From NCBI GenBank assembly GCA_944381125.1, contig CALWKB010000083.1, forward strand, positions 1 to 64,000: a stretch of DNA of 64,000 bases, given 5' to 3'. Within the stretch, counting starts at the first letter, position 1. Every line of letters begins with the position of its first letter. Both the position numbers and the translations under genes were made by a program. Positions 35,781 to 40,919 of the stretch are shown piece after piece. The notes beneath the pieces are model-generated. The model was not told the origin of the DNA, did not search any database, and worked only from the letters and a program-made list of their open reading frames with translations. The DNA is from an uncultured Mediterraneibacter sp. Its GTDB lineage: Bacteria > Bacillota > Clostridia > Lachnospirales > Lachnospiraceae.

Positions 35781-37064
35781 TTAGCGGTCAGCCAGTTCAT
35801 TTGTGATATCCTCCCACGTCACGCCTCGTTCTACCATAAGTACCATGGCGTGGTAAAGGAAATCGGCAATCTCATATTTGATTTCCTCGGGATTCGGATT
35901 TTTTGCGGCGATAACGATTTCTGTCGCTTCTTCGCCGACTTTTTTCAGGATTTTATCAATGCCTTTGTCAAAAAGATAGTTCGTGTAGGAACCTTCTTTC
36001 GGGTGAAGTCTTCTGTCTTCAATTGTATTATAGACAGATTCAAATACCTGCAGCGGGTTTTTGGCGTCATAATCGGCTCCGACAATTGTTGTATAGAAGC
36101 ATGACCGGTTTCCGGTATGACACGCGGCTCCGACCTGGTCTACTTTTGCCAGAAGAGTATCCCGGTCACAGTCGATGGAAAGGGATCTGACGTACTGAAA
36201 ATGTCCGGACGTTTCGCCCTTTACCCACTGGCACTGTCTGCTTCTGCTGAAATAAGTCATACGTCCGGTTTTTACCGTATTATCAAAAGCTTCTTCATTC
36301 ATATAAGCCATCATGAGCACTTCATTTGTTTTATAATCCTGTACGATAACCGGGATCAGGCCGTCGGAATTCAGTTTAAATTCACTGAAATCCATCATGC
36401 TTTCAAATGAAGTCATCTGAATGCCTGCGTCCGCGCAGATTTCCTTGAATTCGTTGAAATCCATATTCAGACTGCTTACAAACATGCCGGATACACCTTT
36501 TATTCCGCTGCATTTGAGAATTCTGAGAATCTCGCTCTGTTCCATTGTATCTGTCAGAACCACGCACGGAAGCTCTGTTATATTCATGACGGAAGCCAGA
36601 TCCAGCCTGTGCATGAATACGATTTCCGTGCTGAACTCTTCGATCAGATGCTGCTGTTTGAAAAGCGCGTCAAAATCATTGAGTGAAACTGCGATTCTTT
36701 CTTTGCCGAATCGCCTGGATACCTCTTCGATCAGATCGATGGACAGAGGTTTTGAAAAGTTCAGGATGGCTCTTTTGGCTCCGGCGTACAGGATTTTTTT
36801 GACGTCTTCTGTTCTTCTTATATTTCCTCCCGCTATCATCGGGATGCTGATTACACGATTGATTTTTTTGATCAGGTCGATGGCTTCATCGTGATCTTCA
36901 TCCGAGTCCGACAGATCGAAAACGATCAGTTCGTCCGCTCCCCTGTCGCTGTACTGTTTTGCCAGTCCGACTACGTCTGCTGACAGGACGGTAGCGTCGT
37001 CGAACCAGGTCACTGCTTTTCCTCCGCTGATAAATATACACGGGGTCAGTCGTTTATAACTCAT
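35781..37064 (-). CDS. hisIE: HisIE fused to a degenerate HisF/HisA-like barrel
   Basis: The C-terminal half is bifunctional HisIE. HisI (about 232-335) has the metal motifs Asp-Cys-Asp-Arg-Asp (298-302) and Cys-His-Thr-Gly...Ser-Cys-Phe (315-323). HisE (about 340-427) has Glu-Glu-Ala-Thr-Glu and Asp-Phe-Leu-Tyr-His. They catalyse the cyclohydrolase and pyrophosphatase steps of histidine synthesis. Residues 1-220 resemble HisF but lack its key acids: position 11 is Phe in Cys-Ile-Phe, and the second Asp region reads Leu-Asn-Asp. AGAAGGAG precedes the ATG. It is the last gene of the his operon, which holds no separate hisA, hisF, hisH or hisC. Confidence 0.9.
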
Positions 37065-37107: not shown

Positions 37108-37698
37108 TTACAGCGTCCCTTTTGTGGACCACACTTCTTTTATCCGGGGTTCCTCTCCGGACGCCATATCAAGGGCTTTTCCAAATGCCTTGAACAGCGC
37201 TTCGGCCATGTGATGGCTGTTGCCGCCGTCCAGAATCTTCAGGTGCAGATTCATCGAAGCGCTGTATGAAACGGCGTAGAAAAATTCCCGGATCATTTCC
37301 GTATCCAGATCTCCGATTCTGGGAACCGTAAACTCGGCGTCATATTTAAAGAACGGTCTTCCTGACAGATCGACGGCGCACAGCGCCAGCGTCTCATCCA
37401 TCGGGAGAATAAAGTATCCGTACCGCCGGATGCCTTCTTTCGCGCCGAGCGCTTCTGCGATTGCCTGTCCGAGTACGATTCCGGTATCTTCCACAGTGTG
37501 GTGACAGTCCACGTTCAGATCTCCTGTGACCTTTACGCTTAAGTCAAAGAGTCCGTGACGGGCAAATCCGTCCAGCATATGGTCAAGAAAGGGAATTCCT
37601 GTATCTATCCGGTTATTTCCGCTGCCGTCAAGGCACAGGGTCAGGGAGATATCAGTTTCTTTTGTCTTTCTTGCGCATTTTGCGATTCTTTTTTCCAT
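37108..37698 (-). CDS. hisB: Imidazoleglycerol-phosphate dehydratase
   Basis: HisB dehydrates imidazoleglycerol phosphate to imidazole-acetol phosphate. The 196-residue monofunctional enzyme has the two internal repeats with metal-binding motifs: [15 protein letters not shown] and a later Gly-Gly-Asn-Ser-His-His-Met-Ala-Glu. Length is standard. GGAGGTATGAT precedes the ATG. Confidence 0.96.
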
Positions 37699-37713: not shown

Positions 37714-39009
37714 TCAGTCTTCCTGGAAACGGACGCGGACCGAATTGGCGTGCGCCGTCAGGCGCTCCGCTTCCGCAAATGCTTCAATGTCTCTGTGCGC
37801 GGCTTCAAGCGCTTCACGCGAATACGAAATGATGCTTGATTTTTTAATAAAGTCGTCCACTGAGAGCGGTGAGAAAAATCTTGCCGTTCCGTTCGTGGGA
37901 AGCACATGATTCGGGCCGGCGAAATAATCGCCAAGAGGCTCGCTGGAATTTTCACCGATAAATATCGCGCCGGCGTTTCGGATCCGCGTCATAACCTCAA
38001 ACGGATTTGCGGTCATAATTTCCAGATGTTCGGATGCAATTTCGTTTGCCGCGTCGATGGCGTCCTCAAGCGTATCCGCCACAAGAATATGTCCGTAATT
38101 GTCCAGTGATTTACGGATAATTTCACCTCTTGAAAGTTCACGGACAAATATGTCGGTCTGCTCAGAAACTTTTTCCGCCAGTTCCATGCTTGTCGTAACA
38201 AGAATAGCGCTGGCCATTTCGTCGTGTTCCGCCTGTGACAGCAGGTCTGCGGCCACGTACCGCGGATTTGCCGTCTCGTCCGCCAGGACGAGTATCTCGC
38301 TTGGGCCGGCGATGGAGTCAATGTTTACATAACCGTATACGGATTTTTTTGCAAGCGCCACATATATATTGCCCGGGCCGACGATTTTATCCACTTTCGG
38401 AATGCTTTCCGTGCCGAATGCCAGCGCGGCGACTGCCTGCGCCCCTCCGACTTTGTATATTCTGCCGGCTCCCGCTTCCTTTGCCGCAACAAGCGTGGTC
38501 GGGGTTACTTTCCCGTCTTTCCCCGGGGGCGTAACCATGATAATTTCATCCACACCGGCTACTTTTGCCGGCATGATATTCATCAGCACAGAAGACGGGT
38601 ATGCGGCTTTCCCGCCGGGCACATAGACGCCCACACGCTCCAGAGGAGTAATTTTCTGGCCGAGTATCGTGCCGTCGGGTTTGCTGTCAAACCAGCTGTA
38701 CTGACGCTGCTTCTCATGATAAACACGGATGTTTTCTTTTGATTTCCGTATGACGGCAAGCAGGGATTCGTCCACAAGTCCGTACGCTTCCTGAATCTCC
38801 TCTTCTGTCACCTGAATATTGGAGGCGTCTGTCACGGCGCCGTCAAATTGTTTTGTATACGCGAATACCGCTTCGTCTCCTCTGTTTTTTACGCAGTCAA
38901 GTATTTCCTTTACGCTGGCTTCGTATTTCCCGTAGCTGTTGGGGCTGCGTTTCAGGAGATCTTCGAGCAGGTTTTTCTTTGTGCTGCTGTCAAGTTTTTC
39001 TATACGCAT
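37714..39009 (-). CDS. hisD: Histidinol dehydrogenase
   Basis: HisD oxidises histidinol to histidine in two NAD-dependent steps. The ATG at 39009 gives 431 residues. The longer open frame runs back through hisG in the wrong context. Characteristic segments are Val-Pro-Gly-Gly-Lys-Ala-Ala-Tyr-Pro-Ser-Ser, Gly-Pro-Gly-Asn and the zinc-region Ser-Gln-Ala-Glu-His-Asp. It overlaps the end of hisG by about ten bases. Confidence 0.97.
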   Translation of the reverse strand: MRIEKLDSSTKKNLLEDLLKRSPNSYGKYEASVKEILDCVKNRGDEAVFAYTKQFDGAVTDASNIQVTEEEIQEAYGLVDESLLAVIRKSKENIRVYHEKQRQYSWFDSKPDGTILGQKITPLERVGVYVPGGKAAYPSSVLMNIMPAKVAGVDEIIMVTPPGKDGKVTPTTLVAAKEAGAGRIYKVGGAQAVAALAFGTESIPKVDKIVGPGNIYVALAKKSVYGYVNIDSIAGPSEILVLADETANPRYVAADLLSQAEHDEMASAILVTTSMELAEKVSEQTDIFVRELSRGEIIRKSLDNYGHILVADTLEDAIDAANEIASEHLEIMTANPFEVMTRIRNAGAIFIGENSSEPLGDYFAGPNHVLPTNGTARFFSPLSVDDFIKKSSIISYSREALEAAHRDIEAFAEAERLTAHANSVRVRFQED

Positions 39010-39656
39010 ATCTGTTCCTCCCTGATCAGGTCGCGCAGGCTGCTGATCAGCTCGCGGATCCTGTCGTTTTCCATTCGCATGCTGACCGGATTGACAATCA
39101 TCCGGGCAGACAGCGGGCATACCTCATCAAGAACCATAAGTCCGTTTTCCTTCAGCGTGGATCCGGTTTCCACGATATCCACTATGACTTCGGACAGTCC
39201 TACGATGGGAGCCAGTTCAATAGAGCCGTTCATTTTGATAATTTCAACAGTCTGATGCCGTTTATTATAAAAATAATCTTTGGCGATGTTCGGGTATTTA
39301 GTCGCCACGCGGATCAGTTCGCGGTGTTCGAGAAGTTCCGCCGCTTCCTCATATCCGCATACGCACATCCGGCATTTCCCGAAACGCAGATCGAGCACTT
39401 CATGAACCTTACGTCCCGCTTCTATAATCGTATCCTTTCCGACAACGCCGATATCAGCCGCGCCGTATTCCACATAAGTAGGAACATCCGGTCCTTTTGC
39501 GAGAAAGAATTTAAGTTTCAGTTCTTCATTGGTAAAAATCAGTTTTCTCGAGTGTTTGTCCTTCATCTCGTCGCATGTGACGCCAAGTTTTTCCAGCATG
39601 GAGAGCGTTTTTTCGGCGAGACGCCCTTTTGTAAGGGCAAATGTCAGATATTTCAT
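39000..39656 (-). CDS. hisG: ATP phosphoribosyltransferase, short catalytic subunit
   Basis: HisG condenses ATP and PRPP, the first step of histidine synthesis. The 218-residue product is the short form, without the C-terminal regulatory domain, and so needs HisZ, which is encoded immediately upstream. Motifs include the N-terminal Ala-Leu-Thr-Lys-Gly-Arg-Leu, Val-Tyr-Gly... Gly-Val-Val-Gly-Lys-Asp, and the PRPP loop Ile-Val-Glu-Thr-Gly-Ser-Thr-Leu near 160. Confidence 0.96.
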   Translation of the reverse strand: MKYLTFALTKGRLAEKTLSMLEKLGVTCDEMKDKHSRKLIFTNEELKLKFFLAKGPDVPTYVEYGAADIGVVGKDTIIEAGRKVHEVLDLRFGKCRMCVCGYEEAAELLEHRELIRVATKYPNIAKDYFYNKRHQTVEIIKMNGSIELAPIVGLSEVIVDIVETGSTLKENGLMVLDEVCPLSARMIVNPVSMRMENDRIRELISSLRDLIREEQICV

Positions 39657-39671: not shown

Positions 39672-40919
39672 CTACTGCTTTTTCGCGGTAACAGTTTTTT
39701 CTTCCCCTGTGATCAGGTTTACCATCTCAATCCGGCAGTCGTCCAGAAGATAGAGCATGCTCATAATAGAATTTTTCTTCGCGTAATCTTCGTATTTTTT
39801 TCTTATGTCTTCCGGTTCCCGCATGATGATCTCAATATTTTTCCCTTTGGAACGGAAATTCATTGCAAGATTTATCGCCCATTCCTCCGTTGAGCGGGTA
39901 TATACTATCAGATTGCGGTAGTTTGTATCCACCGGTATCTTCTGCCTGCTGAGCGCGCTCATCAGTTCATCGACAATAATGGCGAATCCGATTGAAGGCG
40001 TGTTTTTTCCGAATTTTGCGAGGAGATGGTCATAACGCCCGCCTCTTACAACGGCGTCTCCTGTCCCGTATGTGTATGCGCGGAAAATAATTCCCGAATA
40101 ATAACCGTAGCTGCCGCTCATGCTCAGGTCAAACGTAATGTGCTCCTCGGCGTGGTACAGCCTGAGAAGTCTGTATATCTTACGAAGGCGTGCGACGGCG
40201 AGTTCCGCGTCTGCGTTCGGGGCCAGACGGGACGCCTGATCGAGAATCTCCGGCCCGCCTGTCAGTTCAGGAAGAATTCTGAACGCTTCTTTTACGCTCT
40301 CTTTTACCTGTCGGTTTTCCAGGATTTCCTCGACTCCGAAATAATTCCGGTTGGCGATCAGCTCCCGGATTTCTTCGATCTGCGCGTCGTCAAATCCGGT
40401 TGTTTCCAGCAGGCTCTGTATGAAGTCGACATGGCCGATGCTGACCTGGAATTCTTTCAGGCCGACTTTTTTAAGACCGTCGACGACCATGGCAAGCATT
40501 TCAGCGTCCGCCTCGATTGAGTCCGGCCCGATCAGTTCGGCGCCCAGCTGGGTATTCTCTTTTAAACGTCCCAGATAGCTGCTGTGATTGATAAAAGTAT
40601 TTCCGACATAGCAGAGACGGATCGGCATTTCTTCTTCTTCAAAAAGCGTCGCTGCGGCACGTGCGACAGACGGGGTTATATCCGGCCTGAGCGCAAGAGT
40701 GTTGCCGTCCCTGTCAAAAAATTTATACATTTCGCGGGAGGAAATCGAGCCGATTTCTTTTCTGAAAACGTCGAAGTATTCAAAGGTCGGGGTCTGTATA
40801 TCCTGATATCCGTACTGATGAAGTACTGTGTTCAGTTTTTTCTGCAGTGCAAGTTTGATTTCACATTCTCTGTTGTAAATGTCCCGGACTCCTTCCGGCG
40901 TATGCAATTTTTGTTCCAT
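39672..40919 (-). CDS. hisZ: ATP phosphoribosyltransferase regulatory subunit HisZ
   Basis: HisZ is a histidyl-tRNA synthetase paralogue that activates the short HisG and mediates histidine feedback. The 415-residue product has class II synthetase-like motifs (Arg-Pro-Asp-Ile-Thr-Pro-Ser near 77-83 and Arg-Gly-Gly-Arg-Tyr-Asp near 283-288) but no anticodon-binding end. Its position as first gene before hisG confirms HisZ over HisS. Confidence 0.95.
   Translation of the reverse strand: MEQKLHTPEGVRDIYNRECEIKLALQKKLNTVLHQYGYQDIQTPTFEYFDVFRKEIGSISSREMYKFFDRDGNTLALRPDITPSVARAAATLFEEEEMPIRLCYVGNTFINHSSYLGRLKENTQLGAELIGPDSIEADAEMLAMVVDGLKKVGLKEFQVSIGHVDFIQSLLETTGFDDAQIEEIRELIANRNYFGVEEILENRQVKESVKEAFRILPELTGGPEILDQASRLAPNADAELAVARLRKIYRLLRLYHAEEHITFDLSMSGSYGYYSGIIFRAYTYGTGDAVVRGGRYDHLLAKFGKNTPSIGFAIIVDELMSALSRQKIPVDTNYRNLIVYTRSTEEWAINLAMNFRSKGKNIEIIMREPEDIRKKYEDYAKKNSIMSMLYLLDDCRIEMVNLITGEEKTVTAKKQ

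Follow-up and report, generated by a model that had tools for sequence, protein, structure and literature searches.

Why would a histidine-synthesis protein carry, ahead of its own catalytic domains, a barrel that has lost the active site of another enzyme of the pathway? The question is raised by an open reading frame (ORF) of 427 aa at positions 35781..37064 (minus strand) of the window, that is, the whole 64,000-nucleotide stretch analysed here (contig CALWKB010000083.1 of assembly GCA_944381125.1, positions 1 to 64,000) from an uncultured Mediterraneibacter sp. of the Lachnospiraceae; by its named relatives, the organism belongs to Mediterraneibacter or lies beside it. It joins a degenerate HisF-type barrel (residues 1-226; 36387..37064, minus strand) to HisIE. 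Our analysis indicates that this is likely a HisIE with a dead HisF barrel, kept by selection as a non-catalytic scaffold, and predicts a similarly decayed barrel at the front of fungal HIS4.

The initial annotation, made from the letters alone, had placed about 220 HisF/HisA-like residues ahead of HisI and HisE in one gene, and Pfam and Protein Data Bank (PDB) matches agree. Pfam His_biosynth matched residues 5-132 (E 1.9e-23), covering profile positions 1-132 of 228, and PDB HisF chains aligned to residues 3-129 with E-values down to 6e-20, far above chance. The best-scoring NCBIfam model was WbuZ/HisF2 (TIGR03572, 78.5 bits), just above HisF (TIGR00735, 74.7 bits) and then HisA (TIGR00007, 56.7 bits); none reached its cut-off (299.7, 294.6 and 228.95, respectively). 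With our own HisF and HisA models, HisF scored higher for 60 out of 61 fused domains, the exception being L206. The first ~225 residues, therefore, match HisF in sequence, and their predicted fold is a (beta/alpha)8 barrel of the HisF type. Derivation from a recent duplicate of the resident hisF was not supported: 10 fused domains branched outside 31 standalone HisF proteins (SH-aLRT, the Shimodaira-Hasegawa-like approximate likelihood ratio test, 99), in a quick tree whose long branches may mislead. The remainder of the protein, by score, is an ordinary HisIE (NF002747, 268.3 bits on residues 225-427, cut-off 187) with predicted cyclohydrolase and diphosphatase activities. It comprises HisI, the phosphoribosyl-AMP cyclohydrolase (residues 226-335; 36060..36389, minus strand; PF01502 at 251-324, E 8.8e-35), and HisE, the phosphoribosyl-ATP diphosphatase (residues 339-427; 35784..36050, minus strand; PF01503 at 343-427, E 1.2e-21).

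The barrel was compared residue by residue in an alignment with 47 HisF and 10 HisA sequences, all of which have all seven catalytic and phosphate-binding positions considered. Phe11 (37032..37034) replaces the catalytic Asp11 of HisF, and Asn129-Asp130 (36675..36680) the catalytic Asp130; both columns are Asp in 47/47 HisF and 10/10 HisA, and the window has Asn in the second, with Asp as the next residue. At the second Ser-Gly-Gly phosphate loop, S, G and G in all 47 HisF, the window reads Leu-Thr-Asp within Leu-Thr-Asp-Thr-Met-Glu-Gln (residues 170-176; 36537..36557; all three features on the minus strand). These changes (Asp11 to Phe, a Leu-Asn-Asp with a neighbouring Asp, and Thr-Asp-Thr-Met-Glu-Gln instead of the late Gly-Gly loop) had been pointed out beforehand, and the alignment bears them out. 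Most of the loops following beta5 and beta6 is deleted as well, while the first phosphate loop is partly retained as Gly-Gly-Asn, together with Asn103.

The decay extends to the rest of the family. Out of 182 N-terminal domains, 14 were set aside (eight intact fusions, two cut by contig ends and four frames without a recognisable barrel), and the 168 degenerate ones were reduced at 75% identity to 61 non-redundant copies; 5 of 80 named loci gave no motif match and were dropped. Seven of the 61 copies keep none of the seven positions, 26 keep one, 21 keep two, five keep three, and a single copy each keeps four or five. By sequence, then, the barrel is a pseudoenzyme for HisF/HisA chemistry, combining lost catalytic residues with purifying selection (roughly estimated, see below), and from these losses we infer that it lacks catalytic activity. 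Two Lachnospiraceae copies, L297 and L314, retain both aspartates and have lost the beta1-alpha1 loop.

If the barrel is dead, working copies should be encoded elsewhere. As had been noted, no separate hisA, hisF, hisH or hisC was seen in the operon's ORF list. Among 35 same-genus genomes, all 35 carry the fusion, a full HisF and HisH, and 34 carry a second HisA-type match (84-105 bits). The initial annotation had held that intact copies elsewhere would favour a pseudoenzyme, and this distribution points that way: the fused domain does not serve as the HisF or HisA of the pathway, and its role as a working substitute for either was rejected. In the window's own genome, a eukaryotic-type hisA lies on contig C139 (L084:4986-5768; TIGR02129, 319 bits, cut-off 229) and hisC on contig C112 (299.6 bits, cut-off 276.6). 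The second HisA-type gene of the genus is read as the eukaryotic type on the strength of its classification in this genome and of nine genus copies that are 64-72% identical to the C139 gene. The C139 hisA stands alone, outside the his operon. Neither a HisF above the cut-off nor any HisH was found on the contigs of this genome. That the strain has really lost hisHF was rejected, and the absence is attributed to an assembly gap: of the 13 kb surrounding hisHF in a neighbour, one side aligns as far as the final base of contig C38 (15086 of 15086) and the other from base 100 of contig C37, while the hisHF part has no match in this genome.

The plain database name HisIE hides how widespread this pseudoenzyme domain is. 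HisI was found in 131 of 140 Lachnospiraceae genomes, one per genus, and the open frame at HisI, an upper bound on protein length, is at least 380 aa in 104 genera, 300-379 aa in 8 and shorter in 19. We retrieved 51 of these genera: 48 carry the degenerate barrel, truncated at a contig end in two cases, and three an intact HisA fused to HisI. In the latter (L277, L279 and L294), HisI alone is joined to HisA, and each genome has one other HisA/HisF-type match, read as HisF by exclusion. L278 combines a degenerate barrel with a frame that ends shortly after HisI, apparently without HisE. In a HisIE tree, which omitted 1 of 20 plain and 3 of 61 fused HisIE, the 58 fused Lachnospiraceae HisIE form a single clade; this alone gives no date for the fusion, because the tree held no plain Lachnospiraceae HisIE.

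Selection has kept the barrel. Across 36 sequences, the median ratio of nonsynonymous to synonymous substitution rates (dN/dS) was 0.044 and 0.055 for the two barrel halves, 0.030 for HisI and 0.026 for HisE; for seven less diverged pairs it was 0.027, 0.009, 0.020 and 0.011, respectively. The barrel is, thus, retained under strong purifying selection in the genus, although the estimate is rough. Conservation within the fused domain peaks in helix alpha3 (residues 84-95; 36780..36815, minus strand), which we propose as a contact surface. In the 61 diverse copies, E86 is conserved in 61, D87 in 59, K89 in 60, K90 in 60, Y93 in 60 and G95 in 61, as are, where alpha4 ends, F119 (60) and G120 (61). 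The same columns in the 47 HisF sequences read E 27 and D 19 at position 86, R 38 and K 5 at 89, A 24 and K 15 at 90, and R 27 at 93, where Tyr is outside the four commonest residues. This comparison identifies K90 and Y93 as the family's additions, the remainder being at least partly inherited.

What, then, does the barrel do? The initial annotation had left open a dead scaffold, a regulator or an enzyme with altered chemistry. Since the family conserves an outer-helix surface and not the pocket, the scaffold is the best supported option: the barrel is probably catalytically dead and would use its outer alpha3/alpha4 face to dock onto the HisIE it is joined to or onto that enzyme's dimer partner, the alpha3 motif being the putative contact surface and HisIE the putative partner. 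The pocket has decayed, whereas the patch on alpha3 and the end of alpha4 is retained and HisIE remains intact, for which the simplest account is a dead barrel kept as a structural part of HisIE. Several observations weigh against this account. The contact between barrel and HisIE is inferred rather than seen, and HisIE was poorly modelled in the predicted structure. The conserved stretch is in part HisF inheritance (D87 in 46/47 HisF, G95 and G120 in 47/47, a basic residue at position 89 in 43/47), and the dN/dS values are rough because synonymous sites are near saturation. A scaffold would also be dispensable in some lineages, since 19 of the 131 genera have only short frames and the fused domains of L281-L283 are shrunken. 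Finally, the first phosphate loop is invariant within the genus (12 sequences), and a pure scaffold would not need it.

This last point makes metabolite sensing the main rival. The barrel half bearing the first phosphate loop could bind phosphoribosylformimino-AICAR-phosphate (ProFAR), phosphoribulosylformimino-AICAR-phosphate (PRFAR), 5-aminoimidazole-4-carboxamide ribonucleotide (AICAR) or phosphoribosyl pyrophosphate (PRPP) and tune HisIE. All 12 genus sequences share G79, G80, N81 and N102, and of the 61 family copies, 50 keep the second Gly of the loop, while the Asn103 column holds Asn in 30 and Asp in 13. However, across the family the pocket is less conserved than the outer helix, the second phosphate site is gone and certain copies are down to ~145 aa, so that we regard a regulatory domain as unlikely, if still the strongest competitor. 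A platform on which another histidine enzyme (HisH, HisA or HisB) docks for pathway assembly appears less probable again: the window retains R5, E46 and E167 of the HisF barrel bottom, but at the position of Asp98, through which HisF contacts HisH, it has Lys, and no more than 3 of the 61 copies have Asp there; at R5, 12 copies have Arg and 32 have Lys.

We found no support for altered chemistry. An enzyme of that kind, or a backup HisF/HisA, could be argued from the Asp directly after the lost Asp130 position and from the two aspartates persisting in L297 and L314; it is nonetheless highly improbable when no copy keeps more than five of the seven positions, the window has lost most of the loops that follow beta5 and beta6 and the 35 relatives have a separate full HisF. 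A neutral, functionless remnant of gene fusion is the least probable of all, since the shortened L281-L283 domains and the short frames that would fit it have to be set against the strong purifying selection seen within the genus and a surface motif near-invariant across the family.

The scaffold reading gains a plausible history from intact relatives. Of 139 genomes sampled across the phylum, 120 have HisI, and an intact HisF-HisIE occurs in 4/4 genomes of family f101 and in genome G611. L284-L287 (f101) and L290 are such intact fusions, each directly downstream of a gene that scores as HisA. As these genomes gave no other HisA/HisF-type match, apart from one unclassified partial match in G610, the fused barrel is the only HisF found in them. 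For L284 the scores are over the cut-offs of both HisF (310 vs 294.6) and HisIE (260 vs 187), and L290 falls slightly below both (282 and 173). A working HisF-HisIE fusion such as that of f101 may have become redundant with a separate HisF, catalysis then being lost and the structural contact kept, although the trees do not show this. Nor do they show that the Lachnospiraceae fusion derives from that of f101: the barrels group with support 0, and the HisIE tree places the two fusions in separate clades. At the opposite extreme stand the shrunken L281-L283 domains; L281 and L282 have an ordinary bacterial-type hisA directly upstream. Because living genomes hold active versions (HisF-HisIE as the sole HisF), partly decayed ones and shrunken ones, the step from enzyme to scaffold is testable in one protein family.

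Among known systems, HisF (TIGR00735) resembles the window's domain in first-half sequence and predicted fold, but it has Asp11, Asp130 and the second Gly-Gly loop, which the window protein lacks, and the latter is fused to HisIE rather than paired with hisH. WbuZ/HisF2, despite its best score, differs in context, the window gene being in a his operon and not a polysaccharide locus. Ordinary HisIE (NF002747) frames are mostly 200-320 aa in the phylum sample, whereas here a 225-residue barrel stands in front. HisA/HisF barrels joined to HisIE, as here, are described in the available passages on four archaeal metagenome assemblies (PMC11237513) and, as isomerase-HisIE proteins, on some Gammaproteobacteria and Spirochaetia (PMC8102479). 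Those passages concern enzyme activities and make no mention of a dead barrel; their like is the intact L284-L287 and L290, not the window's protein. Literature searches, with subscription papers mostly outside their reach, found nothing on a HisIE-HisF fusion in Lachnospiraceae or a HisF pseudoenzyme in histidine biosynthesis.

Another parallel may be fungal. The N-terminal region of fungal HIS4 was described in 2007 as of unknown function and without homologues. Searches similarly limited for subscription papers turned up only PMC1963479 on this domain as HisA-like or a TIM barrel, and, in the portions accessible, nothing on it under HIS4 as a pseudoenzyme or the structure of the trifunctional protein's N-terminus. 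The final sets were drawn from the 223 of 231 fungal proteins whose N-terminal domain could be cut out. A profile of 100 long domains matched HisF at 91.5% (P 8.8e-7; range 90-91.5%), against 0.6 for TrpC, 0.6 for Dus and at most 2.2 for shuffles, and more weakly eukaryotic-type HisA (42.5%) and HisA (10.4%). In profile comparison, therefore, the similarity of the HIS4 domain to HisF exceeds that to unrelated barrels and shuffles. Results varied with the sample: 162 domains of all lengths gave 51% with HisF and 15% with a genus-rich bacterial profile, the latter giving 14% with the 100 long domains; for 111 rows with a shortened lead row, the bacterial domain scored 18% and HisF 79-86%; 80 domains gave 47%, 14 long ones 0.2%, and 70, many of them short and from Saccharomycotina, 6.5% and out of register. 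The 61-copy bacterial profile gave 79-80% and 38% with the final fungal sets, and since it also matches TrpC (88%) and Dus (96%), the match between bacteria and fungi is by itself less specific than that between fungi and HisF. Foldseek with whole fungal HIS4 retrieved only HisD, the HisD-like HpsN, HisIE and PutA among the 50 matches listed; barrel matches emerged on a second look. The long fungal branch of the HisIE tree could not be placed. An Arg before strand beta5 of the HIS4 domain (alignment A3, P0321 residue 100) is invariant in 100/100 fungal proteins, and at the apparently equivalent bacterial position, 123, 43 of the 61 copies have Lys and 14 Arg.

HIS4 (N-terminal domain, HisI, HisE and HisD) would, thus, likewise place a decayed HisA/HisF-like barrel before HisIE, a proposed identity for the front end of a classic yeast gene that had no assigned origin in the papers found. 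It differs in also containing HisD and in a more diverged N-terminal domain, and a common origin of both fusions was not shown. Tentatively, and at slightly less than even chances, a HisA/HisF-type barrel fused before HisIE and then switched off may be a recurrent architecture, with the Lachnospiraceae protein as the counterpart of HIS4 and both barrels retained for a structural or allosteric role in the HisI/HisE machine once catalysis was redundant.

The fusion is the last gene of the row hisZ-hisG-hisD-hisB-fusion, all on the minus strand, and the four upstream genes all score over their NCBIfam cut-offs: hisZ (39672..40919; TIGR00443, 331 bits, cut-off 272), hisG (39000..39656; TIGR00070, 201 bits, cut-off 75.8), hisD (37714..39120; TIGR00069, 557 bits, cut-off 244) and hisB (37108..37698; NF002111, 271.5 bits, cut-off 231), the last lying 43 bases upstream of the fusion. 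The hisD ORF overlaps hisG by 120 bases; its true start probably lies further downstream, inside the ORF, because the HisD model match begins only at residue 70.
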